A stretch of 41,650 bases of DNA from a virus, in the IMG/VR virus record IMGVR_UViG_3300044627_002952, positions 1 to 41,650 of that record; one strand, written 5' to 3'. Positions 1-13,096 of the stretch are shown one piece after another. Each line of letters begins with the position of its first letter. The stretch's first letter is position 1. The notes under the pieces are model-generated. The model saw only the letters and a program-made list of their open reading frames with translations, made no database searches and was not told the origin of the DNA. A program made the translations under genes and the position numbers.

Positions 1-172
1 TCTCGTTGCAGGAACGACCGCAGGCAAGCACCTCGTCAATTACATACCGCTCGCTGGCCTCCGTGTAGGTACGGATGCTGCGAATCTTGTTGTCGATGTA
101 GTTCTTGACGATCAGGCCGCAAGCAAGAACACCAAACACGACGGCAAAAATCAAAGCGTAATTTTCGTTCAT
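1..172 (-). CDS. Small membrane protein, 3' end outside window
   Basis: Partial gene running off the left edge; 57 residues are visible. Residues 5-19 (YALIFAVVFGVLACG) form one N-terminal hydrophobic segment followed by a positively charged stretch (KNYIDNKIRSIR), which fits a single-span inner-membrane protein with a cytoplasmic tail. No family is recognised. Unlike its neighbours it has a clear Shine-Dalgarno site (AAGGAG, 6 bases before the ATG) and a leader of about 20 bases behind a strong TTGACA/TATAAT promoter, and it lacks the ACC-ACC motif after the ATG. The 5' end of its leader does contain ACCACC. Function unknown. Confidence 0.6.
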   Translation of the reverse strand, partial: MNENYALIFAVVFGVLACGLIVKNYIDNKIRSIRTYTEASERYVIDEVLACGRSCNE

Positions 173-196
173 CTGAATCTCCTTGTTGTTGGTGGT

Positions 197-224
197 ATTA
201 TACCACGGGTTTGTTGGTTGTCAA
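197..224 (-). promoter_or_regulatory. Early promoter for the leftmost gene
   Basis: On the minus strand TTGACA (219-224), a 16-base spacer and TATAAT (197-202). The predicted start near 190 gives a short leader beginning with ACCACC-like sequence and ending with AAGGAG before the ATG at 172. This is one of the few left-arm promoters that does not give a leaderless mRNA. Confidence 0.75.
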
Positions 225-231
225 GTCTGAA

Positions 232-315
232 TAGGACGGGTGAGATTCGAACTCACGGTGCATAAAGCGGGCAATTATAAGTCGCCTGCTGCTCTCCATC
301 GCAGCACGCCGTCCT
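232..315 (-). tRNA. tRNA-Ile (UAU)
   Basis: Minus-strand cloverleaf. The acceptor stem AGGACGG/CCGTCCT is perfect. The D stem is GCTGC/GCAGC, the anticodon stem GGCGA/TTGCC with loop CTTATAA (anticodon UAU), and the T arm GTGAG-TTCGAAT-CTCAC. The anticodon arm resembles bacterial tRNA-Ile2 (CAU loop). The variable region is about 13 bases, longer than usual for a tRNA-Ile. The discriminator is A and no CCA is encoded. It would read the AUA codon, which is plentiful in the AT-rich structural genes. Confidence 0.75.
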
Positions 316-433
316 GTGTGAAGCCTTTTTACGGATGCTCCTTTGTCCGTGCATTCGCAGAATGCCTCTGTATGGTTTCTTGGAAGCCATCAAACTTTTA
401 TAATATAATCTGCATTGTGTTTCTCAATAGTGC

Positions 434-462
434 ATTGTAGCACCTCTTCTGTTGCTTGTCAA
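434..462 (-). promoter_or_regulatory. Promoter upstream of tRNA-Ile
   Basis: TTGACA (457-462), 17-base spacer and TACAAT (434-439) on the minus strand, immediately after tRNA-Arg. Transcription would start near 427 and cross about 110 bases before reaching tRNA-Ile. Confidence 0.65.
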
Positions 463-464
463 GG

Positions 465-538
465 CGTTTCCGGGGGGACTCGAACCCTCAACCTGCCGCT
501 TAGAAGGCGGCTGCTCTATCCGGTTGAGCTACGGAAAC
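465..538 (-). tRNA. tRNA-Arg (UCU)
   Basis: Minus-strand cloverleaf: acceptor GTTTCCG/CGGAAAC, D arm beginning GCTC, anticodon stem GCCGC/GCGGC with loop CTTCTAA (anticodon UCU), T loop TTCGAGT. CCA is not encoded. It reads AGA, a codon common in the AT-rich half of the window. It follows tRNA-Leu by 7 bases, so both probably come from the promoter at 640-668. Confidence 0.9.
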
Positions 539-545
539 ATCTGAA

Positions 546-630
546 TGGGATTGGTGGGACTTGAACCCACAAGACTTTTGAGGTCGGCAGATTTTGAGTC
601 TGCTGCGTATGCCGATTCCGCCACAATCCC
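546..630 (-). tRNA. tRNA-Leu (CAA)
   Basis: Type II tRNA on the minus strand: acceptor GGGATTG/CAATCCC, anticodon stem GCAGA/TCTGC with loop CTCAAAA (anticodon CAA, codon UUG), a long variable arm typical of Leu, T loop TTCAAGT. CCA is not encoded. The promoter TATAAT ends 9 bases upstream of the mature 5' end. Confidence 0.9.
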
Positions 631-639
631 GATGCGCCC

Positions 640-668
640 ATTATATCACACAATGGGCGGGCTGTCAA
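640..668 (-). promoter_or_regulatory. Promoter of the tRNA-Leu/tRNA-Arg operon
   Basis: TTGACA (663-668), 17-base spacer, TATAAT (640-645) on the minus strand. The promoter lies inside and just past the 3' end of the preceding protein gene (stop at 646-648), so the coding end doubles as promoter spacer. Confidence 0.8.
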
Positions 669-921
669 CCCTATCTTCTAGGGAAAACTTTTCTTCGATT
701 TCCTCAAAGAATTCCGAATTGGCTCGGACCACCTGCTCATGGAGCCGGTCAACATTGAGGCATTGGGCTGCGTTGTCCACCTCATCGAAGTACTGATTGA
801 TCAGTTCCTTCGGCGGGTTGCCGTTGCCGTGCAGGATGTGTTCCATGATGCGGTCTGCGACGATGACCACGCGGTCATAAGCCTGGAGCGAGCTGATGTA
901 GTGCTGTTCTGAAATGTTCAC
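646..921 (-). CDS. Hypothetical 91-residue protein, GTG start
   Basis: No family recognised. It is predicted mostly helical and acidic, with a C-terminal stretch rich in Glu (EFFEEIEEKFSLED). The chosen GTG at 921 overlaps the upstream gene's stop as GTGA and is preceded by AAGGAGG at a good distance, which favours it over the TTG-type start further upstream. It is the last gene of a three-gene chain (1495 to 646) joined by 4-base overlaps, so translational coupling is likely. It has no ACC-ACC motif, as expected for a coupled gene. Confidence 0.7.
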   Translation of the reverse strand: MNISEQHYISSLQAYDRVVIVADRIMEHILHGNGNPPKELINQYFDEVDNAAQCLNVDRLHEQVVRANSEFFEEIEEKFSLEDRVDSPPIV

Positions 922-1325
922 TTGCCGTCCTCCTTGAAACAATCCCAGCCTCGCTTGTCTGCGTAGTACTGTTCGGATGATGTCTTATCCCAATGGTGTT
1001 CCCATTGGCACACTTCCCGCCTCGCCTCGTCGCGCTCGGCAGCAATCACTCCACACTCAACGCGGAGCATGGAGGATTCAGTTTCAGCCTTCCGTAGTTC
1101 GCCCTGCATTTCGTCGCGCTCGACGGTGAGGCGGTCGGTCAATACAAACAAGGCATCGCGCTCTTCACGGAGCCGTTCGATCTCCTTGATCGCACAGTTG
1201 ATGTAGTGCGCTGCGGTGGCGGGGGAGTCGAAGTGTCCTCCGTCCTCAATGGTTGCAGCGATCTGCTGTAGCCGGGGAATGGGGTCGAAGTTGCTCATGT
1301 GTGCAGTTATGGGTGCGGGTGTCAT
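918..1325 (-). CDS. Hypothetical coiled-coil protein, 135 aa
   Basis: Residues about 45-105 are rich in Glu, Arg, Lys and Leu in heptad-like spacing (IKEIERLREERDAL, then DRLTVERDEMQGELRKAE), which predicts a long coiled coil. The C-terminus has a Trp/His segment (CQWEHHWDK). No family is recognised. Its ATG overlaps the stop of the upstream 57-residue gene (ATGA), so it is probably translated by re-initiation from the same leaderless mRNA. An internal ATG at residue 10 is an alternative start. Confidence 0.72.
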   Translation of the reverse strand: MTPAPITAHMSNFDPIPRLQQIAATIEDGGHFDSPATAAHYINCAIKEIERLREERDALFVLTDRLTVERDEMQGELRKAETESSMLRVECGVIAAERDEARREVCQWEHHWDKTSSEQYYADKRGWDCFKEDGK

Positions 1326-1495
1326 GGCTTGATCTGATTCTCGTTGAGAGCCTTGAGGATGTTCATTTCCTCCATCTCATCGATCTTTTCGGGAGTGTAT
1401 CCCTTTGCCTTCAGTTCGTCGGTCTTGATGGACTGTGCCTTCAACTGGGCGTAGAAGGCGTCAGCGTCAACATGGATGATGGTGGTCTTGCACAT
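1322..1495 (-). CDS. 57-aa protein with Y-family polymerase-like N-terminus
   Basis: Residues 5-16 read TIIHVDADAFYA. This closely resembles the first strand and metal-binding motif of Y-family DNA polymerases (DinB/UmuC start near IIHVDMDAFYA, where the first Asp binds Mg). The remaining 40 residues (DELKAKGYTPEKIDEMEE) do not continue that fold and the palm and fingers are absent, so it cannot be a polymerase. It may be a decayed fragment, an inhibitor that mimics the motif, or chance. Its promoter -10 box ends 6 bases before the ATG (leaderless). ACC-ACC encodes Thr4-Thr5. Confidence 0.7.
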   Translation of the reverse strand: MCKTTIIHVDADAFYAQLKAQSIKTDELKAKGYTPEKIDEMEEMNILKALNENQIKP

Positions 1496-1501
1496 GGGTG
1501 T

Positions 1502-1530
1502 ATTCTACCAGTTAGGGGTGCGAGTGTCAA
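1502..1530 (-). promoter_or_regulatory. Leaderless early promoter (gene at 1495)
   Basis: TTGACA (1525-1530), 17-base spacer, TAGAAT (1502-1507), then six bases ACACCC and the ATG. Confidence 0.8.
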
Positions 1531-1537
1531 GTCTGAA

Positions 1538-1610
1538 TGCCTCCGGTGGGGTTCGAACCCACGACCAATAGATTAAAAGTCTACTGCGCTACCAACTGCG
1601 CTACAGAGGC
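1538..1610 (-). tRNA. tRNA-Lys (UUU)
   Basis: Minus-strand cloverleaf: acceptor GCCTCTG/CGGAGGC with one G-U pair, D arm GCGC...GCGC, anticodon stem GTAGA/TCTAT with loop CTTTTAA (UUU), T loop TTCGAAC. CCA is not encoded. It reads AAA/AAG. The 3' flank TTCAGACTTGACA is the same as that after tRNA-Ile and supplies the -35 box of the next gene. Confidence 0.9.
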
Positions 1611-1619
1611 GAGATGCCC

Positions 1620-1648
1620 ATTATATCCGATGGGCGCGGTGAAGTCAA
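1620..1648 (-). promoter_or_regulatory. Promoter of tRNA-Lys
   Basis: TTGACT (1643-1648), 17-base spacer, TATAAT (1620-1625), ending 9 bases upstream of the mature tRNA end, the same spacing as at tRNA-Leu. Confidence 0.8.
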
Positions 1649-1649
1649 G

Positions 1650-2045
1650 TCAGTCCTTGTCGTTGTTTCCCAGTTCCTCTTCGATGTCGTTGATGTACTC
1701 CCGCCGGTCGTGGGGGAAGTGCTTCCGCTCCAACTCACCCGCGAACTCGTCGTAGGTCATGGACATCATGTCGCCCAAGAGCATCATGAACGCCGCGTCG
1801 CCTGCGGTGACATCCTTCGGACGCTCGTTGCGCTCCTTCGCATCCGCGAGTTCCTGGGTCGCGTAGGCCATCGCAGCGGAGGCGACGAGGCGGAGCTTCT
1901 GATCCTTGAAGAAGGTCGGGTTCCGCATCACCAGTTCCACGAGGCTGTAGATCACCTCGTGGATGCTGGGCTTGAACTGCTCCATCATGGGGTGCGGCTC
2001 GTTGTTGTCGAAGAAGTTGCTGAAGTTGTTCGTCGGGTCAGGCAT
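1650..2045 (-). CDS. Hypothetical acidic protein, 131 aa
   Basis: No family recognised. The composition is helical and charged, with a Met-rich stretch around residues 88-97 (MMLLGDMMSM) and an acidic tail (INDIEEELGNNDKD). It overlaps the end of the upstream 76-residue gene by 8 bases, so it is probably translated by coupling from the mRNA that starts at 2268. It has neither its own promoter nor the ACC-ACC motif. Confidence 0.78.
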   Translation of the reverse strand: MPDPTNNFSNFFDNNEPHPMMEQFKPSIHEVIYSLVELVMRNPTFFKDQKLRLVASAAMAYATQELADAKERNERPKDVTAGDAAFMMLLGDMMSMTYDEFAGELERKHFPHDRREYINDIEEELGNNDKD

Positions 2046-2268
2046 TGTTGGCTTCCTTGATTTGGGCGTGAAGGTTGAGGATGAACTCGTACTCGTCGTC
2101 GGTGGTCATGTCGGGGTCGGCCATCTTGGTCAGCATCACATACGCTGACCCCATTCGCATCACCTTCTCCGGGTCGGTGTCCCAGTCCGGGTTGGCGAAG
2201 ATGAAATCGGAGATGGTGTTCAGCAGGTCGCTGACATTGCAGGTGGTGGGCTTGGTGGGCTTGTTCAT
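2038..2268 (-). CDS. Hypothetical 76-aa protein
   Basis: No family recognised. It is a small acidic helical protein (for example NVSDLLNTISDFIF and TTDDEYEFILNLHAQ). The N-terminus MNKPTKPTT is Pro/Thr-rich and contains ACC-ACC at codons 8-9. It is first gene of a two-gene unit with the 131-residue protein. The promoter at 2275-2303 places the expected transcription start on the A of the ATG. Confidence 0.78.
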   Translation of the reverse strand: MNKPTKPTTCNVSDLLNTISDFIFANPDWDTDPEKVMRMGSAYVMLTKMADPDMTTDDEYEFILNLHAQIKEANNA

Positions 2269-2274
2269 GGTGGT

Positions 2275-2303
2275 ATTGTACTGAAGTCAGAGGGGGCTGT
2301 CAA
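2275..2303 (-). promoter_or_regulatory. Leaderless early promoter (gene at 2268)
   Basis: TTGACA (2298-2303), 17-base spacer, TACAAT (2275-2280), then ACCACC and the ATG: exactly six bases, no room for a ribosome binding site. Confidence 0.85.
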
Positions 2304-2616
2304 GCAGGGAATAGTCGATATTTGAAACAGAAACTTCAAGGCCCCAATGCTCCAAAGTTTTCTTCATATCGTCCACGAAAGTCAACTGGAGCATCGGGTC
2401 GCACTCAAAGTTGAGAGAGGCGGTCAACATGCAGAACTCGTTCGCAATGTCGAACTGGAAGGTGGGGTTCTGTCCACGGGTCACGGCGTACCTATCGTCC
2501 GCGAAGTTCCATGCATGGAGGTATGCGTTCGACATCTCCTTGAGGCGCATGGTAGCCCAAGACCGGCTCCGTGCCGTCTTGTGCATGATGACGGTGATGT
2601 TGCTGTAGAGTGCCAT
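2287..2616 (-). CDS. Hypothetical 109-aa protein
   Basis: No family recognised. It has a mixed alpha/beta composition, with a basic N-terminal third (HKTARSRSWATMRLKEM) and an acidic C-terminal part. Its start overlaps the stop of the very acidic 78-residue protein as TGATG, so the two are probably co-translated in a fixed ratio. It has no promoter of its own and no ACC-ACC. Confidence 0.78.
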   Translation of the reverse strand: MALYSNITVIMHKTARSRSWATMRLKEMSNAYLHAWNFADDRYAVTRGQNPTFQFDIANEFCMLTASLNFECDPMLQLTFVDDMKKTLEHWGLEVSVSNIDYSLLDSPL

Positions 2617-2852
2617 CAGTCGAAGTCCTCGTCATCCACGAAGTCAGATGCGTCGAAGTCGCTCATCTCCGGGATGTCATCGTCGTGTTCGGTGTAGTCA
2701 TCGTCCGCGTCGTAGAGGCCGATCATGCGTCGAGCCTCCGCTTCGCTGTAGCCTTCAGCCATCAACTCTTCGATGGCCTCCTCGTCGGTCATCTCCTCAA
2801 TGGCGTGGTCGTACTGATCGTCGGTGTTGTCGAAGTCGGTGTCAATGTCCAT
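2616..2852 (-). CDS. Extremely acidic 78-aa protein, possible DNA mimic
   Basis: By my count 34 of 78 residues are Asp or Glu, and there are only two Arg and no Lys. The middle (DEEAIEELMAEGYSEAEARRMI) resembles a small three-helix UBA/TS-N type motif; both flanks are Asp-rich. Size and charge fit DNA-mimic proteins such as anti-restriction proteins, but no specific family is recognised. The start at 2852 was chosen because TATACT ends six bases upstream; the longer reading frame would start inside the repeat element. Just after the start it has ACACC instead of the full ACC-ACC. It leads the two-gene unit with the 109-residue protein. Confidence 0.72.
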   Translation of the reverse strand: MDIDTDFDNTDDQYDHAIEEMTDEEAIEELMAEGYSEAEARRMIGLYDADDDYTEHDDDIPEMSDFDASDFVDDEDFD

Positions 2853-2858
2853 GCGCGC

Positions 2859-2886
2859 AGTATAGCCTATACCGGCGGGGATACAA
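2859..2886 (-). promoter_or_regulatory. Leaderless early promoter (gene at 2852)
   Basis: TTGTAT (2881-2886), 16-base spacer, TATACT (2859-2864), six bases GCGCGC, ATG. The -35 is the weakest of the set. The promoter sits just downstream of repeat element copy A. Confidence 0.7.
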
Positions 2887-2905
2887 GTGGTATCATCCAA
2901 GAAAA

Positions 2906-3007
2906 CGAAATATATTTTGCGTCCCATAACGTCCAGGTGGTCCGGGCTACTATCAGGCGGCCGGTCCTATAAGAAATCAAAAATGCCTGGGGCATTTTTG
3001 ATAGTAG
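2906..3007 (-). repeat. Structured repeat element, copy A
   Basis: One of three copies (A 2906-3007, B 4280-4378, C 5529-5602). Outer arms GGCTACTATCA (2945-2955) and its near-complement (2999-3009) flank an inner hairpin at 2976-3002: 12-bp stem, 3-base loop. On the minus strand the hairpin is followed by a T-rich run, as in an intrinsic terminator. After it come the conserved blocks TGATAGTAGCC and CTGGACGTTATG, then a T/A-rich tail. The inner stem sequence differs completely from the other copies but stays paired. It lies between one operon end and the next promoter. Confidence 0.85.
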
Positions 3008-3009
3008 TC

Positions 3010-3041
3010 AAATAAAATACCCCACCTTGAAGAAGGTGGGG
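3010..3041 (-). terminator. Intrinsic terminator
   Basis: On the minus strand CCCCACCTT, loop CTTC, AAGGTGGGG, then TATTTTATTT. It ends the transcript of the 77-residue membrane protein gene and abuts repeat copy A. Confidence 0.8.
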
Positions 3042-3148
3042 CGTGGGAGCATCCGTCCAAACTCCCGCGTTTCTCCGCACAGCGCTGTACGGATCTTTTT
3101 TATGCCGCTTGTGGCCACACAGGGCATCCGGTTTTGATGGTTTGGGCG

Positions 3149-3382
3149 TTAGTCCTTGAACTCGCATCCGGTCACGACATAGCGAAGTCCGCCAAGCGTG
3201 AAGGTCAGGGTGAACGCGCAGAAGTACATCACGCCAGCGCAGAAGAGTCCGACTGCGTTCAGCAGCCACGAAATGTCGTTGGGGGCGAGGAATGCGTAGG
3301 TGAAGATCATCGGAAGGAACCACGCCGCAATCAGGACGAGGGCACCGATGAAACGGTCGATGTAGGAGGTGGTGAGGTTCAT
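3149..3382 (-). CDS. Small two-span membrane protein, 77 aa
   Basis: Two strongly hydrophobic segments are visible, about residues 12-31 (ALVLIAAWFLPMIFTYAF) and 39-62 (LLNAVGLFCAGVMYFCAF), with short charged ends. This predicts a two-span inner-membrane protein. No family is recognised; small phage membrane proteins of this kind are often early host-interaction or superinfection-exclusion factors, which is only a guess here. N-terminus MNLTTS with ACC-ACC at codons 4-5. The promoter gives a leaderless mRNA, and its -35 box contains the stop codon of the upstream gene. Confidence 0.8.
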   Translation of the reverse strand: MNLTTSYIDRFIGALVLIAAWFLPMIFTYAFLAPNDISWLLNAVGLFCAGVMYFCAFTLTFTLGGLRYVVTGCEFKD

Positions 3383-3388
3383 GGGAGT

Positions 3389-3417
3389 ATTGTACCTGGG
3401 TTGGAGGCGAATGTCAA
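3389..3417 (-). promoter_or_regulatory. Leaderless early promoter (gene at 3382)
   Basis: TTGACA (3412-3417), 17-base spacer, TACAAT (3389-3394), six bases ACTCCC, ATG. The TGA inside TTGACA (3414-3416) is the stop codon of the preceding gene. Confidence 0.85.
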
Positions 3418-3713
3418 GCCCAGTTCAGCATCTTCTCCGTCTTGGGCGAGAATCCCATGATCCCGGTGATCTTGTCCTCACCGATCAGGATCCAGTCCTT
3501 CTTGGTGATGTCGAAGGCGCAGATGTAGCCTTCGGTGGTGTGACGGATGCCCTTCGGCAGGTTGCCTCCGAGCTGACGGATGAAGGTCGCGTCCGTGGTG
3601 ACCTCACGGGCGGAGGGGGTGCCGTCCTTCTTCGTGAAGGTGACCATCACGGTGTCGTTGTTGGAGAGCGAGACGCGGAGGACGGTAGCGAGAGGCAGTT
3701 CGGTGGTGTTCAT
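3414..3713 (-). CDS. WYL_2 / DUF2693-like SH3-barrel protein, 99 aa
   Basis: The segment VMVTFTKKDGTPSAREVTT followed by a late strand pair (ICAFDITKKDWILIGEDKI) matches the layout of the phage Sm-like/SH3-barrel family DUF2693 (WYL_2), common in T4-like phages of aquatic bacteria: a strand with F-x-K-x-D-G-T and a C-terminal D-x-x-K-x-x-W strand. The biochemical role of the family is not known to me. A second, more diverged member is at 11159-11842 across the compositional boundary. It is leaderless; the N-terminus MNTTE contains ACC-ACC. Confidence 0.8.
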   Translation of the reverse strand: MNTTELPLATVLRVSLSNNDTVMVTFTKKDGTPSAREVTTDATFIRQLGGNLPKGIRHTTEGYICAFDITKKDWILIGEDKITGIMGFSPKTEKMLNWA

Positions 3714-3719
3714 GTGAGT

Positions 3720-3747
3720 ATTGTAGCCGGTTGGGGGTGAAAGTCAA
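3720..3747 (-). promoter_or_regulatory. Leaderless early promoter with A-tract (gene at 3713)
   Basis: TTGACT (3742-3747), 16-base spacer, TACAAT (3720-3725), six bases ACTCAC, ATG. Upstream of the -35 lies AAAAAATCTTTC (minus strand), a possible UP element also found at the promoter at 5938-5966. Confidence 0.82.
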
Positions 3748-3823
3748 GAGGGAAAGAAAGATTTTTTGGTGGTTTCGGGAGGGGGCGGTAACTCAACCCC
3801 CTCCCATCATGCACCACCATGAT

Positions 3824-4225
3824 TTACTGGATCAGGTCCTGCGCGGTGGGGACGCCCTGCTTCTCGAACTTCTCCGCTTCGGCCTGGAGGATCTCGAAGA
3901 ACAACTTCGGGCACTGCATCTGCAAGGCGGTGATGTTCTCACCGTTGTCCCCCGCGAGGATCGCGTCCCCGACGAGCGGCTGCTTGCAGATGATGGAGGC
4001 GCGGGTGTTGAAGCGCGGGTTGTCGATGCACAGACCCTCCTCATCGATCCACATCATCGAATCCTCGATGTGGTTCAGCGGGACGCTGATCGGCTGCACG
4101 AGGCGGCACGACATGATCGGGTACATCGACTCCAGCGGGTTGTCGGCGTTCAGTTCCACGACGCGGACGGGCTGGGTGATGTCGGCGGGGATCAGGATGG
4201 CGGGGATGGTGTTGGTGGTGGTCAT
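3824..4225 (-). CDS. DUF3846-like phage protein, 133 aa
   Basis: The opening IPAILIPADITQPVRVVEL, the middle MMWIDEEGLCIDNPRFNTRA and PLVGDAILAGDN match the pattern of the phage/actinobacterial DUF3846 family: an N-terminal strand with I-P-A-D, a W/Y-x-x-E-E-G turn with N-P-x-x-N, then G-D-x-x-x-x-G. That family has no established function. N-terminus MTTTN with ACC-ACC at codons 2-3; promoter immediately upstream, leaderless. It is followed by a GC-rich hairpin at 3778-3806 without a good T-tract. Confidence 0.8.
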   Translation of the reverse strand: MTTTNTIPAILIPADITQPVRVVELNADNPLESMYPIMSCRLVQPISVPLNHIEDSMMWIDEEGLCIDNPRFNTRASIICKQPLVGDAILAGDNGENITALQMQCPKLFFEILQAEAEKFEKQGVPTAQDLIQ

Positions 4226-4231
4226 GCGAGT

Positions 4232-4259
4232 ATTGTAACAGAACGGCAGGCAATGTCAA
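4232..4259 (-). promoter_or_regulatory. Leaderless early promoter (gene at 4225)
   Basis: TTGACA (4254-4259), 16-base spacer, TACAAT (4232-4237), six bases ACTCGC, ATG. It lies just downstream of repeat copy B. Confidence 0.85.
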
Positions 4260-4279
4260 TAGGAGGGCACGGAATAAAT

Positions 4280-4378
4280 CGAATATATTTTACGTCTCAT
4301 AATGTCCATACCGGCGGCTACTATCAGGCCGCGTCCAATAAAAAATCAGCAAACCCTTAGGGTTTGCTGATAGTAGCC
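4280..4378 (-). repeat. Structured repeat element, copy B
   Basis: Outer arms GGCTACTATCA (4316-4326) and TGATAGTAGCC (4368-4378) are perfectly complementary. The inner hairpin 4345-4371 is a 12-bp stem with loop TTA. On the minus strand it is followed by TTTTTTATTGGACG, the best terminator-like tail of the three copies, then the conserved second arm, ATGGACATTATG and a T/A-rich end. It separates the 46-residue gene from the promoter of the DUF3846-like gene. Confidence 0.85.
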
Positions 4379-4390
4379 CGAGGGGCTGGC

Positions 4391-4531
4391 TCACACTTCC
4401 CGAGCCAGTTCCCTCTTTCCCTCCCTCCGCGCCATCCGAGGGTCGCGGCTCTTCTTTCCCCAAGTCTTGGGGCGGAGCCGGATGCCTTCACGGAAAGCGT
4501 CGTGGACGAATTTGCCTGGGCGGTGCTTCAT
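4391..4531 (-). CDS. Small basic protein, 46 aa
   Basis: Very basic: Arg/Lys-rich throughout (GIRLRPKTWGKKSRDPR, then MARREGKRELAREV), so it may bind nucleic acid. No family recognised. Its ATG overlaps the stop of the upstream 81-residue gene (ATGA), with GGAG four bases before the start, so it is probably coupled. It lacks ACC-ACC, as do the other coupled genes. It ends 13 bases before repeat copy B. Confidence 0.6.
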   Translation of the reverse strand: MKHRPGKFVHDAFREGIRLRPKTWGKKSRDPRMARREGKRELAREV

Positions 4532-4773
4532 CGTGTCTCCTCTAGGTCAATCAGGGCGGAATCAATCTTCATCTGAAGGCGGCGAATCGTGTCACGCTCC
4601 GCCTTCGCTTCAGCGTAGAATGCATCGTGAGCTGCGGTTTCCCGATAGGTGTTCATTTCGCGCAGCACATCCACCATAGCGGTGAACATGAAACGGGAAA
4701 TAACTTCCATTTCGCGCTTCGACAGTTCCACCTGCATGGCGGGCTTGCGAATCGGCTTGAGGGTGGTGGTCAT
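4528..4773 (-). CDS. Hypothetical helical protein, 81 aa
   Basis: No family recognised. It is mostly helical, with a possible coiled coil at residues 50-78 (FYAEAKAERDTIRRLQMKID). N-terminus MTTTLKP with ACC-ACC-ACC at codons 2-4. Promoter at 4780-4808, leaderless. First gene of a two-gene unit with the basic 46-residue protein. Confidence 0.78.
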   Translation of the reverse strand: MTTTLKPIRKPAMQVELSKREMEVISRFMFTAMVDVLREMNTYRETAAHDAFYAEAKAERDTIRRLQMKIDSALIDLEETR

Positions 4774-4779
4774 GGTGGT

Positions 4780-4808
4780 ATCTTACCTTCCTGTCCTGTC
4801 CCTGTCAA
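4780..4808 (-). promoter_or_regulatory. Leaderless early promoter (gene at 4773)
   Basis: TTGACA (4803-4808), 17-base spacer, TAAGAT (4780-4785), ACCACC, ATG. Confidence 0.83.
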
Positions 4809-4822
4809 TAGGGTAGGGCGGA

Positions 4823-5437
4823 TTACTCCGCCTTTCCCCTGATGATGATCCACAGAAGCGCCTGCATGTCGGCGGCGGGCATGTTCCACGAATCGGCCAC
4901 CGTCCGAACGGCAGCGGCGATGCCACGGTACTCAACGGCGCTGGGCGCATCCTTCGGCTGGCCAGCGTACTTCGACTTGGGGCCGTAGGTGAGGCCGGCA
5001 GCGCGGCACATCCAAATATCGACCACCACCGCATCGGGGTCACCACCGATGGCACGGGCAAACGCGTTCGTCTTCGGCCCGCGCAGGCCGTCGTACCCTT
5101 CGCGCTGGCAACGGTCCGCAGCATCCAGCGCCGAACGCAGGCCCGCAGGCCGCTGGCCCATAGCGTACTCGGCGGCCTTGCGCTTGTTCAGCGCCCAAGT
5201 AACCCGGGGAGAGAAGGCCGACACGACGCTAGCGGACACTTCAAGCGTCCACGACGGCGCGATGGTGCAGAGGGATTCGGCGAACGCGTTCGCGTCGCAG
5301 TACCAAGTACCCGCCCGCTTGATGTCGGCGGGCGTGGCCGAGGCCAGCAGGGTACGGAAGCGGCCTTCGGCCTCAACGCGGACGGCGGACATGCGGGCGA
5401 GGGTAGCGGCGGACGGCTGACGGGTGGTGGTGACCAT
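4823..5437 (-). CDS. Phage DUF7178-like, helix-hairpin-helix glycosylase-like protein, 204 aa
   Basis: Layout from N to C: a helical start, G-T-W-Y-C-D-A-N-A-F-A near residue 43, V-V-S-A-F-S-P-R-V-T-W near residues 70-80, G-P-K-T-N-A-F near 120, and D-A-V-V-V-D-I-W near 134. This pattern is shared by a phage/actinobacterial family usually annotated only as a domain of unknown function. The S-P-x-x-x-W, K-x-x-x-F and V-x-x-D series recalls the HhH-GPD fold of base-excision glycosylases, but I cannot show catalytic activity. N-terminus MVTTT. It has the weakest promoter pair of the set (TTGCAT/TACCAT), still leaderless. It lies downstream of repeat copy C. Confidence 0.78.
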   Translation of the reverse strand: MVTTTRQPSAATLARMSAVRVEAEGRFRTLLASATPADIKRAGTWYCDANAFAESLCTIAPSWTLEVSASVVSAFSPRVTWALNKRKAAEYAMGQRPAGLRSALDAADRCQREGYDGLRGPKTNAFARAIGGDPDAVVVDIWMCRAAGLTYGPKSKYAGQPKDAPSAVEYRGIAAAVRTVADSWNMPAADMQALLWIIIRGKAE

Positions 5438-5443
5438 GCGGTA

Positions 5444-5471
5444 ATGGTACCCGAACGGCTACAGAATGCAA
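5444..5471 (-). promoter_or_regulatory. Leaderless early promoter (gene at 5437)
   Basis: TTGCAT (5466-5471), 16-base spacer, TACCAT (5444-5449), six bases TACCGC, ATG. Confidence 0.7.
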
Positions 5472-5528
5472 TAGGGTAGCCCGCTGAAACGCAAAGAATA
5501 ATTATTCATCGCGGTGCATAGTTATGCA

Positions 5529-5602
5529 GGGCGTCCAGGTCGTCCGGCTACTATCAGGCCGTCCAATAAAATCAAGATCGCAGGGCGATCTTGATAGTAG
5601 CC
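5529..5602 (-). repeat. Structured repeat element, copy C
   Basis: Outer arms GGCTACTATCA (5546-5556) and TGATAGTAGCC (5592-5602) are perfect complements. Inner hairpin 5571-5595: 11-bp stem, 3-base loop, followed on the minus strand by TTTTATTGGACG. The conserved CCTGGACG follows the second arm, after which this copy diverges into AT-rich palindromes (5500-5528). A further hairpin (stem GCCCCGA/TCGGGGC, 5618-5636) precedes the element in transcription order. Confidence 0.85.
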
Positions 5603-5672
5603 CACAAACAACCTAGCCCCGAACGAATCGGGGCAGGGACGAATCCTCTTCGGTTGTAAGAGCACCACCTCT

Positions 5673-5930
5673 TTAGTCTGTGGCCGGTGCGGGCGTTTGC
5701 TGTCCGACGCGCACACCTGCGCGGAATGCGTGGATCAGTTCCAACAGTTCCCGCTTGCTGCGGTAACCGGGGAAGATGGCATCCGTCCCGGAGACGAGAA
5801 CCCTTTGCAGTTGCCATCCGCCGTATGCGCCCTGGAGGCAGTAGGCTCCGGGGTGGCCGGGGGTGGCCCCGACGAGTTGGTTCAGGACGCGGACTGCGGA
5901 TGCGAGGTCGTACTTGGTGGTGCGCTTCAT
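5673..5930 (-). CDS. Hypothetical 85-aa protein
   Basis: No family recognised. The start at 5930 (MKRTTKYDL) is preferred to an in-frame upstream start because the promoter's TAAGAT ends 7 bases upstream and ACC-ACC lies at codons 4-5, the rule for this region. The sequence has a Gly/Tyr-rich middle (GAYCLQGAYGGW) and a Pro/Ala-rich tail. Confidence 0.75.
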   Translation of the reverse strand: MKRTTKYDLASAVRVLNQLVGATPGHPGAYCLQGAYGGWQLQRVLVSGTDAIFPGYRSKRELLELIHAFRAGVRVGQQTPAPATD

Positions 5931-5937
5931 GGTGTGA

Positions 5938-5966
5938 ATCTTACTGTATCGGGGGGCGGGAGTCAA
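5938..5966 (-). promoter_or_regulatory. Leaderless early promoter with A-tract (gene at 5930)
   Basis: TTGACT (5961-5966), 17-base spacer, TAAGAT (5938-5943), seven bases TCACACC, ATG. AAAAAATCTTTC lies upstream inside a long inverted repeat (about 5967-6006), matching the A-tract at the 3720-3747 promoter. Confidence 0.8.
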
Positions 5967-6014
5967 GGGGGCAGGAAAGATTTTTTACTTTCTTTCCTGC
6001 CCCCCACCGGGGGA

Positions 6015-6404
6015 TTAGACGAGGACCGACGGGGCACGCATACGCTGCCGGAAGGCCGTGTCGCGTCCGTCGATCCAGTTGGCCGCAGCGAGGAGGCCGT
6101 AGGCGACCGCCCGCATCTCGTTCGCGGTGCAGGAGCAGCCCGCCCGCTCACCAAACGCACCGATGAGGTTGAAGGACGCCATCCGGGTAGAGGGCGACGA
6201 GAGGACGCGGACGGCGTAGGGGCCGACCGGGATCATGAACGCAGCCGCCGACTCGTGGTCGAACTGGACGCGGGTGTAGTTGCTCCGGTTGCTGATCTTG
6301 CAGTCACCGATGCGGTTCTCGCGCTCACGGCTGCGGAGGCCGTCAACGGAACGCGAGGGGCTGAACACGATGTCGTTGACACAGGCGAAGGTGGTGGTGG
6401 TCAT
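6015..6404 (-). CDS. Hypothetical 129-aa protein
   Basis: No family recognised. N-terminus MTTTTF with four ACC codons. It is the exception in this arm: upstream there is TTGACA (6435-6440) but no good -10 at the standard place, and AGGAG lies 8 bases before the ATG, so it is probably translated by a Shine-Dalgarno route from a leadered or read-through message. It has a Cys pair (AGCSC) near residue 90 and an Arg-rich end. Confidence 0.78.
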   Translation of the reverse strand: MTTTTFACVNDIVFSPSRSVDGLRSRERENRIGDCKISNRSNYTRVQFDHESAAAFMIPVGPYAVRVLSSPSTRMASFNLIGAFGERAGCSCTANEMRAVAYGLLAAANWIDGRDTAFRQRMRAPSVLV

Positions 6405-6436
6405 GGTAGATGCTCCTAGTGAGAGGGGTGCGATTG

Positions 6437-6628
6437 TCAAGCGGTAACGCAAGATTCTGCGCGAAACTTTGCCTTGCTCCAGCGCGGGTCGGCATCGTAC
6501 CCGTTGGTGAGGAGCAGGTAGCGGAACTCCTCAATGGCCTGGGCCTTGGAGTCAGCGCGAACCGTGGTGGAGTGAATGATGCCGCCGAGGGTGCAGGTGA
6601 CGCGGAAGAGTTGGGTGGTGCTGTTCAT
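6437..6628 (-). CDS. Hypothetical 63-aa protein
   Basis: The pattern of strand (FRVTCTLGGIIHSTTVRA) followed by helix (SKAQAIEEFRYLLL) and a W-S-K turn is a compact beta-beta-alpha layout common in small phage early proteins. No family named. First gene leftward of the divergence hub. Promoter TTGACT/TACCAT, leaderless, ACC-ACC at codons 4-5. Its stop codon is the TGA inside the TTGACA at 6435-6440. Confidence 0.75.
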   Translation of the reverse strand: MNSTTQLFRVTCTLGGIIHSTTVRADSKAQAIEEFRYLLLTNGYDADPRWSKAKFRAESCVTA

Positions 6629-6634
6629 GCGTGT

Positions 6635-6662
6635 ATGGTAGCGAATCTACAATGGAAGTCAA
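6635..6662 (-). promoter_or_regulatory. Leftward hub promoter, leaderless
   Basis: TTGACT (6657-6662), 16-base spacer, TACCAT (6635-6640), six bases ACACGC, ATG at 6628. The -35 box lies inside the left arm of the 29-bp inverted repeat. Confidence 0.83.
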
Positions 6663-6745
6663 TACCCTTTCTCAAATATTTCTCGAGCGCCCCCAGGCGA
6701 CCGATAACCTACCGGCAGAAATATTTGAGAAAGGGTATTGACTTC
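6655..6745. repeat. Perfect 29-bp inverted repeat at divergence hub
   Basis: Left arm 6655-6683 and right arm 6717-6745 are exact reverse complements, separated by a 33-base GC-rich spacer. Each arm holds a -35 box (TTGACT) and an AT-rich CTCAAATATTTCT stretch upstream of it, so two identical promoter backs drive transcription outward in both directions. Beyond the arms the two promoters also share the -10 GCTACCAT. It could act as a joint UP element, an operator, or an origin. Confidence 0.9.
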
Positions 6746-6765
6746 GATAGCAAACTTGCTACCAT
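6738..6765 (+). promoter_or_regulatory. Rightward hub promoter, leaderless
   Basis: TTGACT (6738-6743), 16-base spacer, TACCAT (6760-6765), six bases TAGCGC, ATG at 6772. Confidence 0.83.
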
Positions 6766-6771
6766 TAGCGC

Positions 6772-6990
6772 ATGGACACCACCCACACCGATTCGCCCGA
6801 CAACTTCCCCTGCCAGTGCCACCTGTCGAAGTACGCCTACGAGGACGCGCTCTGCCCCGAGTGCGAGGAGCGGGAGCGGCAGCTCGAAGCCCAGGTGGAG
6901 GCCGAAGCGCTGCGCGCCGAGGCCATGGAGGAGAGGGACTGGGACGCCGATAACGATTGGCTCGCCTCAGCGGGCTGGGGCGAGATGTGA
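6772..6990 (+). CDS. Hypothetical acidic protein with Cys pairs, 72 aa
   Basis: Two Cys pairs at residues 14-16 (C-Q-C-H) and 28-31 (C-P-E-C) could bind a zinc ion. They are followed by an acidic, Glu/Ala-rich helix (EERERQLEAQVEAEALRAEA) and a Trp/Asp tail. No family is recognised. First gene rightward of the hub; leaderless; N-terminus MDTT with ACC-ACC at codons 3-4. Confidence 0.75.
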   Translation: MDTTHTDSPDNFPCQCHLSKYAYEDALCPECEERERQLEAQVEAEALRAEAMEERDWDADNDWLASAGWGEM

Positions 6991-7061
6991 GCCCCAAATA
7001 AATCTTCAAACTTCCACCGGCCACCCTTGACATGGGGTGGTCGGTGTGCTAATATGCGCGC
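6989..7061 (+). repeat. Promoter repeat unit 1
   Basis: Intergenic unit repeated at 7228-7302 and, more diverged, 7489-7553. Shared order: AAATAAATC, TCAAA-TTCCACCG, then an inverted repeat whose loop is the -35 box, then GTGTGCTA and a -10. Here CACCGGCCACCC pairs with GGGTGGTCGGTG around TTGACAT(G). Confidence 0.8.
7027..7055 (+). promoter_or_regulatory. Leaderless early promoter (gene at 7062)
   Basis: TTGACA (7027-7032), 17-base spacer, TAATAT (7050-7055), six bases GCGCGC, ATG. The -35 box sits in the loop of a 12-bp inverted repeat. Confidence 0.83.
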
Positions 7062-7229
7062 ATGATCACCACCGACGGTAACGATGAAACCCCCCGCAAG
7101 TACACCGATGGCGAGTACCGGCTGCGGCCCGAGTACCAGGAGGAGCAACACAGCGCCTGTTGGGAGGACCGCTACGGGCCCGACTACGATGACTGCGACG
7201 AGGGCCCTGACTGGGAGGGCGATGACTGA
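7062..7229 (+). CDS. Small acidic Trp/Tyr-rich protein, 55 aa
   Basis: Rich in Asp, Glu, Tyr and Trp (for example YGPDYDDCDEGPDWEGDD). It shares the DNA string GAAACCCCCCGCA, the E-T-P-R motif and the E-G-P-D motif with the next gene at 7303, so the two are probably a tandem duplication that included the promoter unit. No known family. N-terminus MITT with ACC-ACC at codons 3-4; leaderless. Confidence 0.7.
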   Translation: MITTDGNDETPRKYTDGEYRLRPEYQEEQHSACWEDRYGPDYDDCDEGPDWEGDD

Positions 7230-7302
7230 GCCCAGGAAATAAATCGTCAAATTTCCACCGCTACCCCTTGCAACCGAGGGGGCGGTGTGCTATCATACGC
7301 GT
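7228..7302 (+). repeat. Promoter repeat unit 2
   Basis: Second copy of the 6989-7061 unit. The inverted repeat here is CACCGC-(TA)-CCCCT paired with AGGGG-GCGGTG around a loop containing TTGCAA. The stem bases differ from unit 1 but remain complementary. Confidence 0.78.
7268..7296 (+). promoter_or_regulatory. Leaderless early promoter (gene at 7303)
   Basis: TTGCAA (7268-7273), 17-base spacer, TATCAT (7291-7296), six bases ACGCGT, ATG. Confidence 0.78.
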
Positions 7303-7449
7303 ATGGAAAGCACCACCAACATCGAAGAAACCCCCCGCACCCCGATGGTCATCAATCTGGCCAAGCGCAACGCGAATCCCGATGAGGAGCGGGAATTCGC
7401 GGAGGGACCGGATGAGGACACCTACTGGGACTGGTACTGGGGCCAGTAA
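7303..7449 (+). CDS. Small acidic Trp-rich protein, 48 aa
   Basis: A paralogue-like partner of the 7062 gene: E-T-P-R near the N-terminus, E-G-P-D near the C-terminus and a striking aromatic end (TYWDWYWGQ). N-terminus MESTT with ACC-ACC at codons 4-5. Leaderless promoter; followed by a strong terminator. Function unknown. Confidence 0.7.
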   Translation: MESTTNIEETPRTPMVINLAKRNANPDEEREFAEGPDEDTYWDWYWGQ

Positions 7450-7460
7450 CCCCCCAGGCA

Positions 7461-7497
7461 CTCAGAGGCCCCCGCAAGGGGGCCTCTGAGTTTATTT
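7461..7497 (+). terminator. Strong intrinsic terminator
   Basis: 13-bp stem CTCAGAGGCCCCC (7461-7473) with GCAA tetraloop and its exact complement (7478-7490), then TTTATTT. It closes the rightward small-gene block. Confidence 0.9.
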
Positions 7498-7518
7498 GAT
7501 AATCTTTCCAACCGGCCC

Positions 7519-8165: not shown

Positions 8166-9161
8166 TTATATATTTGCATATTCTTTACTTCCTGAAAAAT
8201 TAATCAACTTTACATCAGTCTGTTCTTTGATGTAATATTTGATAAAATCTTTCATTACTATAATATCTTCAAAATTTACCAACTGACCTTCATATTTTAG
8301 CCGGAATGTTCCGACACTCTCAAGCACATCACACTTGTTGATATAAAGTTCTGTGCATCCTGAAAGTTTGATGGCAGCAATGAGTTTATCCAAATTCAAC
8401 CAGTTCACCAGACGCTTGCGACCAGTGGTTGAGCCAAATTCCTGACCTTCCTCAATTATCTGGTTGAGGATCTTGTCTTCCCACAGCGACTCTGGAAAGA
8501 GTGGATCCACACCGCTCTTGGTATCATAGATCTTGGCGACACCAATCAGCCGTTCGATCTTCTTTGGCGAGAAGCCAAGCGAGCAGGCACTATAAGGCAT
8601 GGTTGAACTGCTGGTGACATATGGGTAATCTCCATGGTCAATGTCAAGCCAGACACTTTGAGCGCCTTCACATAGTACGCGACCTTTGAGTTCTCCATCC
8701 CAGAGGAAATTTTGCGAAAAAACATCCTCGGCCCGTTTTCCTTTTCGAAGCATCTTATCGGCATAGCAAGGAGCAATGCCCTGACCAGTTGTACCAAGTT
8801 TACCTTTTAGGTTGTTCAAATCATATTCGATGTGATCATCTGTAATGATATGGGCCTTTGGAGAAACTTTTACAAGTCCGATGTCAAATCCGTTTTTGTT
8901 CAAGTAACTGAGTTCTTGATAAAATTTATCAACATGAAGAACACAACCGGGACCAATAATGGATGGCTTGTCCTGAAAAATACCACACGGAATAATGTGT
9001 GTCTTGTATTTTACATTGTTGATCCAGACCGTATGACCTGCGTTGGGCCCGCCATTCCAACGACAAACCATATCGTAGTCTTTAGCAATTGCGTTCGAGA
9101 TCTTTCCCTTGCCCTCGTCACCCCAAGCAAGGCCGTAAATAATATCAACAGATTTAATCAT
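8166..9161 (-). CDS. purA: Adenylosuccinate synthetase, short archaeal/phage type
   Basis: Makes adenylosuccinate from IMP, GTP and aspartate. Visible motifs: the P-loop W-G-D-E-G-K-G-K (residues 13-20) with catalytic Asp15, G-G-P-N-A-G-H-T with catalytic His43, G-T-T-G-Q-G-I-A-P, E-G-A-Q, D-I-D-H-G-D-Y-P-Y-V-T-S-S, and the late S-T-T-G-R-K-R. At 331 residues it is about 100 shorter than bacterial PurA (about 430) and matches the size of archaeal PurA and phage PurZ. The Asp replaced in PurZ is kept, so IMP is the likely substrate. The ATG at 9161 starts the conserved first strand. It lies directly behind tRNA-Asn and shares its late promoter. The GMP reductase at 12059 would supply IMP. Confidence 0.93.
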   Translation of the reverse strand: MIKSVDIIYGLAWGDEGKGKISNAIAKDYDMVCRWNGGPNAGHTVWINNVKYKTHIIPCGIFQDKPSIIGPGCVLHVDKFYQELSYLNKNGFDIGLVKVSPKAHIITDDHIEYDLNNLKGKLGTTGQGIAPCYADKMLRKGKRAEDVFSQNFLWDGELKGRVLCEGAQSVWLDIDHGDYPYVTSSSTMPYSACSLGFSPKKIERLIGVAKIYDTKSGVDPLFPESLWEDKILNQIIEEGQEFGSTTGRKRLVNWLNLDKLIAAIKLSGCTELYINKCDVLESVGTFRLKYEGQLVNFEDIIVMKDFIKYYIKEQTDVKLINFSGSKEYANI

Positions 9162-9174
9162 AAAAAGTTCCAAA

Positions 9175-12058: not shown

Positions 12059-13096
12059 ATGTTTTTACATGAAGATATTAAATTGGATTATTCCGACGTA
12101 TTGATTGTTCCACAATCATCAAAAGTTTCTTCTCGTAAGGAAGTTGATCTTACGGTTGAAACTGTTTTTAATTGTGGAAAAACTTGGAAAGGAGTTCCAA
12201 TCATGGCATCAAACATGTCAACGATTGGAACTCACGCTATGGCAAAGGCATTGTATCAACATAAGATGGTTACATGCCTCCGCAAAGGCGGGACATATTA
12301 TGAAGTTCTTATTAGAGAAATGCCAGAGATTGAACCTTATGTAACTCTTACTCTTGGTATGGATAAAGAGAGTATGTTGTATATTGATACGGCTGAAATC
12401 AAAGATCCAACTTTTGTTTGCTTGGATGTTGCAAATGGTTACATGGAAAAGTTTGCTGATTTTGTAAATAAGGTGAGGAACAAATGGAAAACATCAATTC
12501 TAATAGCGGGAAATGTGGTAACACCGGAGGGGATGGAACTGTTGGCAAAGGCTGGATCAGACCTCATAAAGGTTGGAATCGGGTCAGGGTCAATGTGCTT
12601 GACCCGGAGAGTGGCGGGAGTGGGTTATCCTCAACTGTCCGCAGTAGCGGAGTGTGCCCAAGCAGGAGCAGAACTTGGGGTTGGGGTCGTCGCTGATGGT
12701 GGAGTTGTACACCCCGGTGATTTTGCTAAGTCTTTTGTGGCTGGGACTGCATTTGTCATGGCTGGAGGCGCATTTGCAGGCCATGACGAGTGTGGAGGTG
12801 AAATACGACACGCCAATCATAACTCATCACTCACGATGCTTCATTATGGTATGTCCAGTAAAACCGCAAATGAAAGATACAATGGCGGCCTCAAGGATTA
12901 CCGTGCTTCCGAGGGCCGCACTGTGGAAGTACCTTATCGTGGATCTATACATCACACCGTTCAGGAAATTCTTGGTGGAATTCGTTCAGCGTGTTCGTAT
13001 GTTGGTGCATTTAACTTGACAGAGTTGTATGCACATGGTAAACTGGTCAAAGTAAATAACCAACTCAACACTATTTTTGAACAGAACGAAATATGA
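12059..13096 (+). CDS. guaC: GMP reductase
   Basis: NADPH-dependent deamination of GMP to IMP. At 345 residues it is close to E. coli GuaC (347) and lacks the CBS domains of IMP dehydrogenase. Motifs: D-Y-S-D-V-L-I-V-P near the N-terminus, the active-site loop G-I-G-S-G-S-M-C (Cys180), G-V-G-Y-P-Q-L-S-A-V, the phosphate site D-G-G, A-G-H-D-E-C-G-G-E typical of GMP reductase, Y-G-M-S-S, and Y-R-A-S-E-G-R-T-V-E-V-P. The stretch from about 12530 to 12780 is noticeably more GC-rich than its surroundings. With PurA it forms a GMP to IMP to adenylosuccinate route. Its stop overlaps the next ATG (ATGA). Confidence 0.95.
   Translation: MFLHEDIKLDYSDVLIVPQSSKVSSRKEVDLTVETVFNCGKTWKGVPIMASNMSTIGTHAMAKALYQHKMVTCLRKGGTYYEVLIREMPEIEPYVTLTLGMDKESMLYIDTAEIKDPTFVCLDVANGYMEKFADFVNKVRNKWKTSILIAGNVVTPEGMELLAKAGSDLIKVGIGSGSMCLTRRVAGVGYPQLSAVAECAQAGAELGVGVVADGGVVHPGDFAKSFVAGTAFVMAGGAFAGHDECGGEIRHANHNSSLTMLHYGMSSKTANERYNGGLKDYRASEGRTVEVPYRGSIHHTVQEILGGIRSACSYVGAFNLTELYAHGKLVKVNNQLNTIFEQNEI

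Follow-up and report, generated by a model that had tools for sequence, protein, structure and literature searches.

The left end of the viral record IMGVR_UViG_3300044627_002952 in IMG/VR raises the question of why so many small genes begin alike, with an in-frame ACCACC (Thr-Thr) within a few codons of the ATG. The window analysed here is the whole 41,650-base stretch of that record and derives from a T4-like myovirus. It encodes a gp32-like protein and a TerL with T4-type terminase domains, the latter ~49% identical to its counterparts in Synechococcus phage DSL-LC02 and Methylophilales phage Melnitz; the nearest relatives of the window as a whole are IMG/VR contigs, mainly one of 94 kb. 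Bases 1 to about 7,500 have a guanine-plus-cytosine (GC) content of 50-62% and contain transfer RNAs (tRNAs) and many small genes, and beyond them GC drops to 31-47%, an abrupt change from a GC-rich accessory arm (1-7500) to an AT-rich core. A sequence-only reading had proposed that ACCACC marks the arm's leaderless genes regardless of protein family, acting either as a translational enhancer in the messenger RNA (mRNA) or as an N-terminal peptide signal. We find that the start signature is real, specific to one clade of phages, selected at the RNA level and located on predicted leaderless accessory genes, with a function that the sequence suggests lies in translation. ACCACC is the commonest form of a wider pattern of A/C-rich, G- and U-poor ANC codons.

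The window contains 52 copies of ACCACC compared to 14.5 +/- 4.3 in shuffles, a 3.6-fold excess. As first described, it lies in frame within codons 2-9 at 13/13 of the named starts, on both strands (Table 1), and is absent from six coupled or Shine-Dalgarno (SD) starts (172, 921, 1325, 2045, 2616 and 4531). Upstream of 12 of the 13 motif starts, the exception being 6404, is the arrangement TTGNNN-N16/17-TANNNT-N6/7-ATG. The TANNNT lies 6-7 nt before the ATG and follows a TTG-type -35 element, and therefore transcription is predicted to start at or beside the A of the ATG; this matches the leaderless architecture, in which the -10 precedes the ATG by about 6 nt and the -35 lies 16-18 nt away. 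All 10 strictly leaderless GC-rich genes of the window carry the motif. The gene starting at 2852, correctly reported to lack the full motif (it has GACACC), belongs to a family that is leaderless without ACCACC in relatives too.

The association extends to related phages when these are scanned by promoter class, as had been suggested. We compared 23 stretches, including the window, from related contigs bearing the arm. Genes were called with our own heuristic, starts being picked by upstream features alone to prevent circularity, and near-identical starts were dropped; some upstream extensions of open reading frames are clearly wrong (e.g. G033 18740 and G027 5648), but such errors would weaken the contrast rather than create it. 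Among genes with a GC content >= 50%, the motif is present in 66/136 predicted leaderless genes and 5/84 others (Fisher odds ratio (OR) 14.9, p = 4e-12), with an expectation of 0.6% from interior windows of the same genes. Near starts it is in frame in 66 genes and out of frame in one, and its share varies between relatives from about 20% to 100% (the value for the window's strictly leaderless GC-rich genes). Families with the motif in at least half of their members make up 32/49 of the leaderless and 3/43 of the other families. Of the 136 leaderless genes, 127 have C and 9 have T at -1, a pyrimidine in every case (136/136); together with the N6 between -10 and ATG, this is what a +1 at the A of the ATG would give. 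Across all IMG/VR (2.9 million viral contigs), a strict promoter, ATG, ANC and ACCACC in succession were found in 11 stretches on 10 contigs, all of this clade. A control scan with other Thr codons, nine codon pairs versus one, returned 21 scattered single matches, two of them in a sister group (G012/G013/G035). In GTDB genomes, a strict search for promoter plus ATG plus ACCACC gave zero matches.

What is preferred at these starts is a set of nucleotides and not threonine, so that the signature is selected as RNA rather than protein. At codons 2-7 of leaderless genes Thr is encoded by ACC in 221/242 cases (91%), compared to 54% in gene interiors (OR 9, p = 1e-30), whilst non-leaderless genes show no such shift (60% versus 54%). 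Synonymous bias was found for Thr, Ser, Asn and Asp, with AGY making up 72% of Ser codons versus 32%. Observed counts exceed expectation for ACC (221 versus 25.5), AGC (64 versus 12.9) and AAC (108 versus 28.1), but not for TCC (17 versus 16.5) or ACG (6 versus 15.8), and G-rich codons have almost gone (GAG 1 versus 46 expected, GGC 0 versus 26, GTG 0 versus 21). Overall, codons 2-7 are 80% A+C as opposed to 52% inside genes, with G down to 11% from 31%. The bias fades with distance: Thr accounts for 46% of residues at codon 4 and has dropped to 6% by codons 16-20, and the ACC share of Thr remains ~0.9 up to codon 15 before falling to 0.53. The first 36 nt have a predicted minimum free energy of -1.2 versus -8.0 inside genes, and their folding is weaker by 2.4 kcal/mol than that of synonymous versions (p = 5e-23); a smaller effect of the same sign is seen in non-leaderless genes.

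These codon data bear directly on the alternative of a Thr-Thr peptide signal for targeting, stability or processing of the protein. Such a signal would account for Thr being 30% of residues 2-7 in leaderless genes, for a motif locked in frame, and for the sister group, which retains Thr runs with mixed codons. It had been argued that relatives keeping Thr-Thr in other codons would point to a peptide, and other codons are indeed used there: N-terminal Thr is ACC 11, ACA 5, ACT 3 and ACG 0 times. ACG is nevertheless a third of interior Thr codons in that group (ACG 69 and ACA 2 of 214), and thus Thr runs built from ACC, ACA and ACT but never ACG follow the nucleotide rule despite the other codons. 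In the clade at large, ACG is depleted while ACC is ~9-fold enriched, Ser is enriched as AGC and not TCC, residue 2 may be N, S, T, K, D, C, E or V, with no common processing site, and the families are unrelated. Synonymous codons are not free to vary, and we therefore reject the peptide signal as very improbable.

Comparisons of orthologues point to a link with the start rather than with the family. DUF7178 orthologues have unrelated N-termini, yet nearly all of the leaderless ones read Met, up to two residues, Thr-Thr. The window's DUF3846-like gene carries ACC at codons 2-4, and in contig G001 its SD-led orthologue has ACCACC shifted to codons 5-6; the leaderless MCKTTIIHVDADAF corresponds to MCKTRVITVDADAF in one SD-led orthologue. 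The start at 6404 had been described as the one SD gene with the motif; both the motif and an AGGAG are present, but its orthologues in G008, G002 and G031 have perfect leaderless promoters (TACAAT-N6-ATG in two contigs) and the AGGAG is located about where these have their -10, so that it probably marks a -10 region that has decayed or been replaced.

We think it probable that the signature is a natural, codon-phased form of the downstream CA-rich enhancer, acting at unstructured, predicted leaderless 5′ ends. The left arm would comprise small accessory, probably early genes, most with their own sigma70-type promoter placed so that transcription would begin at the A of the ATG. With neither leader nor SD sequence, the ribosome would have to load on the 5′ AUG, and hence codons 2 to about 7, the part within its mRNA channel, would be selected as RNA that is A/C-rich and poor in G and U, both to avoid pairing and to resemble the downstream CA-rich enhancer. 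RNA of A and C alone cannot self-pair. Under GC-rich, C-ending codon usage the cheapest such sequence would be tandem in-frame ACC, and hence Thr-Thr; of the candidates ACC, AAC, CAC and CCC, those chosen in frame are ACC and AAC, with AGC. An RNA-level role in translation, as originally proposed, is thus the best reading by way of the synonymous codon tests, whereas enhancement itself, with higher expression of these genes, is something we infer.

Several observations weigh against this enhancer interpretation. The exact ACCACC is absent from half of the leaderless genes, and genes in the AT-rich part with a near-leaderless T4-type late promoter (TATAAATA-like) show no ACC signal and an ordinary AT-rich composition. 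The claim that the motif goes with translation mode rather than with family holds between families, but is unproven within the 12 families of mixed mode, where it occurs in 30/73 leaderless and 7/31 SD-led members (Mantel-Haenszel OR 2.0) and the A+C difference between the two is not significant (p = 0.15). This within-family contrast is small because SD-led orthologues often keep the motif, examples being the MKNTT family, 6404 in the window and in G001, and DUF3846 in G001. In mycobacterial leaderless mRNA, randomising +4 to +9 revealed no preference (PMC4633059), and a downstream effect is therefore not universal. Lastly, A/C-rich composition alone predicts 166 ACC codons and 64 tandem pairs, compared to the 221 and 97 observed; lack of structure may therefore not explain everything, and an ACC-specific component besides it is possible.

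That excess leads to a codon-specific alternative, a minor though real possibility, in which in-frame ACC at codons 3-5 is favoured during early elongation beyond any lack of structure, whether because of tRNA-Thr-GGU, of the path through the ribosome, or of a factor from phage or host that recognises AUG-ANC-ACC-ACC. The near-absence of ACCACC out of frame speaks for it, as do the counts of CAC-CAC (1) and CCA-CCA (0), a tandem ACC frequency above independent expectation, and a strong enrichment of A-V-C codons where CAC and CCC rise only about twofold. Phase may, however, just reflect what proteins tolerate (Thr-Thr does no harm, Pro-Pro and His-His are less benign), ACA and ACT are used by relatives too, and contig relatedness inflates the tandem counts. 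Rather improbable is a stronger version in which AUG-ANC-ANC-ACC-ACC would be a positive recognition element for leaderless messages, beyond structure avoidance; its reader would be either the host ribosome or a factor, supplied by the phage, that steers ribosomes to the mRNAs of phage accessory genes. It is quite improbable that the motif works as DNA, the initially transcribed +4 to +20 tuning promoter escape or binding a regulator. Within the predicted transcript the motif does fall at +4 to +27, and ACCACC is also the promoter discriminator at 172, 2268 and 4773, but this would leave unexplained a three-base phase with variable offset (0, 3, 6 or 9), a synonymous bias reaching codon 15, and SD-led orthologues in operon positions that can retain the motif. 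The discriminator copy upstream of gene 172, the leftmost gene, had been taken for the 5′ end of a leader and cited in favour of an RNA role; it occupies the same place as those at 2268 and 4773 and, judging by the spacing from -10 to transcription start, is probably DNA outside the transcript, and this argument fails. Hitch-hiking on duplicated promoter-plus-start cassettes, which would make the motif common by descent, has two duplicate pairs in the window to recommend it, one inverted (84%) and one direct (73%). The remaining promoters have mostly consensus bases in common, spacers and prefixes are unrelated in most genes, prefix codons and offset vary between genes and between orthologues, and the motif is spread over 32/49 families. 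Cassette duplication accounts for two pairs only and is rejected as the general cause, for which it is most improbable.

Table 1. Coordinates of motif-bearing genes and other features in the window (minus-strand genes start at the higher coordinate).
Feature	Coordinates	Strand	Details
ACCACC immediately following TATAAT, before gene 172	191..196	-	promoter discriminator, position -6 to -1
MCKTT gene, predicted leaderless	1322..1495	-	ACCACC 1481-1486, codons 4-5; promoter TTGACA-N17-TAGAAT-N6-ATG
MNKPTKPTT gene, predicted leaderless	2038..2268	-	ACCACC 2242-2247, codons 8-9; discriminator also ACCACC, 2269-2274
Predicted leaderless gene without full motif	2616..2852	-	TATACT-N6-ATG GAC ATT GAC ACC
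MNLTT gene, predicted leaderless	3149..3382	-	ACCACC 3368-3373
MNTTE gene, predicted leaderless	3414..3713	-	ACCACC 3702-3707; WYL_2-like, below cut-off
MTTTN gene (DUF3846), predicted leaderless	3824..4225	-	ACCACCACC 4214-4222
MTTTL gene, predicted leaderless	4528..4773	-	ACCACCACC 4762-4770; discriminator ACCACC 4774-4779
MVTTT gene (DUF7178), predicted leaderless	4823..5437	-	ACCACCACC 5423-5431; weak promoter TTGCAT / TACCAT
MKRTT gene, predicted leaderless	5673..5930	-	ACCACC 5916-5921
MTTTTF gene	6015..6404	-	ACC x4 at 6390-6401; AGGAG in start region; orthologues leaderless
MNSTT gene, predicted leaderless	6437..6628	-	ACCACC 6614-6619; promoter is inverted copy of that at 6772
MDTT gene, predicted leaderless	6772..6990	+	ACCACC 6778-6783
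MITT gene, predicted leaderless	7062..7229	+	ACCACC 7068-7073; second copy of start unit at 7303 (103 nt, 73%)
MESTT gene, predicted leaderless	7303..7449	+	ACCACC 7312-7317
Inverted duplication, 67 nt (84%)	6617-6683 / 6717-6783		divergent pair of leaderless promoters with their starts, back to back
Direct repeat, 103 nt (73%)	6996-7098 / 7237-7339		tandem duplication of promoter and start of two small acidic genes
Intergenic element, three copies	2947-3007, 4318-4376, 5548-5600	both	
Adenylosuccinate synthetase-like gene	8166-9173	-	purine metabolism
IMPDH/GMP reductase-like gene	12059-13096	+	purine metabolism

The arm contains a further repeated feature, an intergenic element in which a 9-bp inverted repeat, CTACTATCA...TGATAGTAG, surrounds a variable perfect hairpin with a T-run after it (minus strand), and then comes a GGACGTTATGGGACGC-like sequence. 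It is found in most contigs of the clade, with about 6 copies each in G001 and G020, and is absent from G012/G013; its build looks like that of a terminator or an alternative-pairing switch. For the DUF7178 protein of the arm, the relatives that bear a name come from phages of Mycobacterium, Gordonia and Rhodococcus and are ~35% identical. In the late genes, T4-type late promoters lie only 3-8 nt before the ATG (9473, 27549, 27584, 34578 and others), and these genes may be nearly leaderless too, without the ACC signal. Two genes of purine metabolism are present in the one phage. As hints to the host, a TerL search of GTDB genomes found no relative, and the photosystem gene PF00124, sought as a sign of a cyanophage, was not found in 18 records.

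For downstream elements that help leaderless mRNA to be translated well, the evidence comes mostly from constructs, with a negative mycobacterial result. In this lineage, a strong synonymous signature marks dozens of natural, predicted leaderless starts spread over unrelated families, which makes the role of such elements directly testable. Moreover, the signature provides a rule for locating where small phage genes truly start, and may serve as a tag for high expression in the absence of an SD sequence.

Among known systems, the start-associated sequences of cluster K mycobacteriophages (PMC3203893) are likewise short conserved sequences at the starts of many unrelated non-structural phage genes, but they are 13-bp sequences upstream of the ATG with an SD core, whereas the motif described here is downstream, within the coding sequence and in frame; the leaderless starts have no SD and no conserved upstream 13-mer with AGGAG. 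The downstream box model, based on complementarity to 16S rRNA, is described as refuted (PMC3160421). Bacterial leaderless genes (TANNNT-N6-ATG) resemble the phage genes in a -10 that puts +1 on the ATG and in having no SD, although the mycobacterial ones show no downstream preference and the phage ones a strong one. Weak folding and an A-starting second codon recall the local absence of structure at starts (PMC3121790) and the enrichment of A at the fourth site of coding sequences (PMC5850271). The phage effect is far stronger, spans codons 2-7 and favours third-base C, and a milder general effect is also seen in this clade's non-leaderless genes. Structure near the 5′ AUG inhibits leaderless loading (PMC9031893), and ACA motifs act as enhancers in leadered mRNAs (PMC3879156). 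Closest in kind are the CA repeats that, placed downstream of the start, are reported to make E. coli translate leaderless (and also leadered) mRNA more strongly (Martin-Farmer and Janssen 1999, as cited in PMC9031893): both are A/C-rich repeats just after the start codon, the E. coli ones known from constructs, whereas the phage motif, a candidate enhancer from uncultured phages, is natural, present in dozens of families and codon-phased as ANC/ACC.

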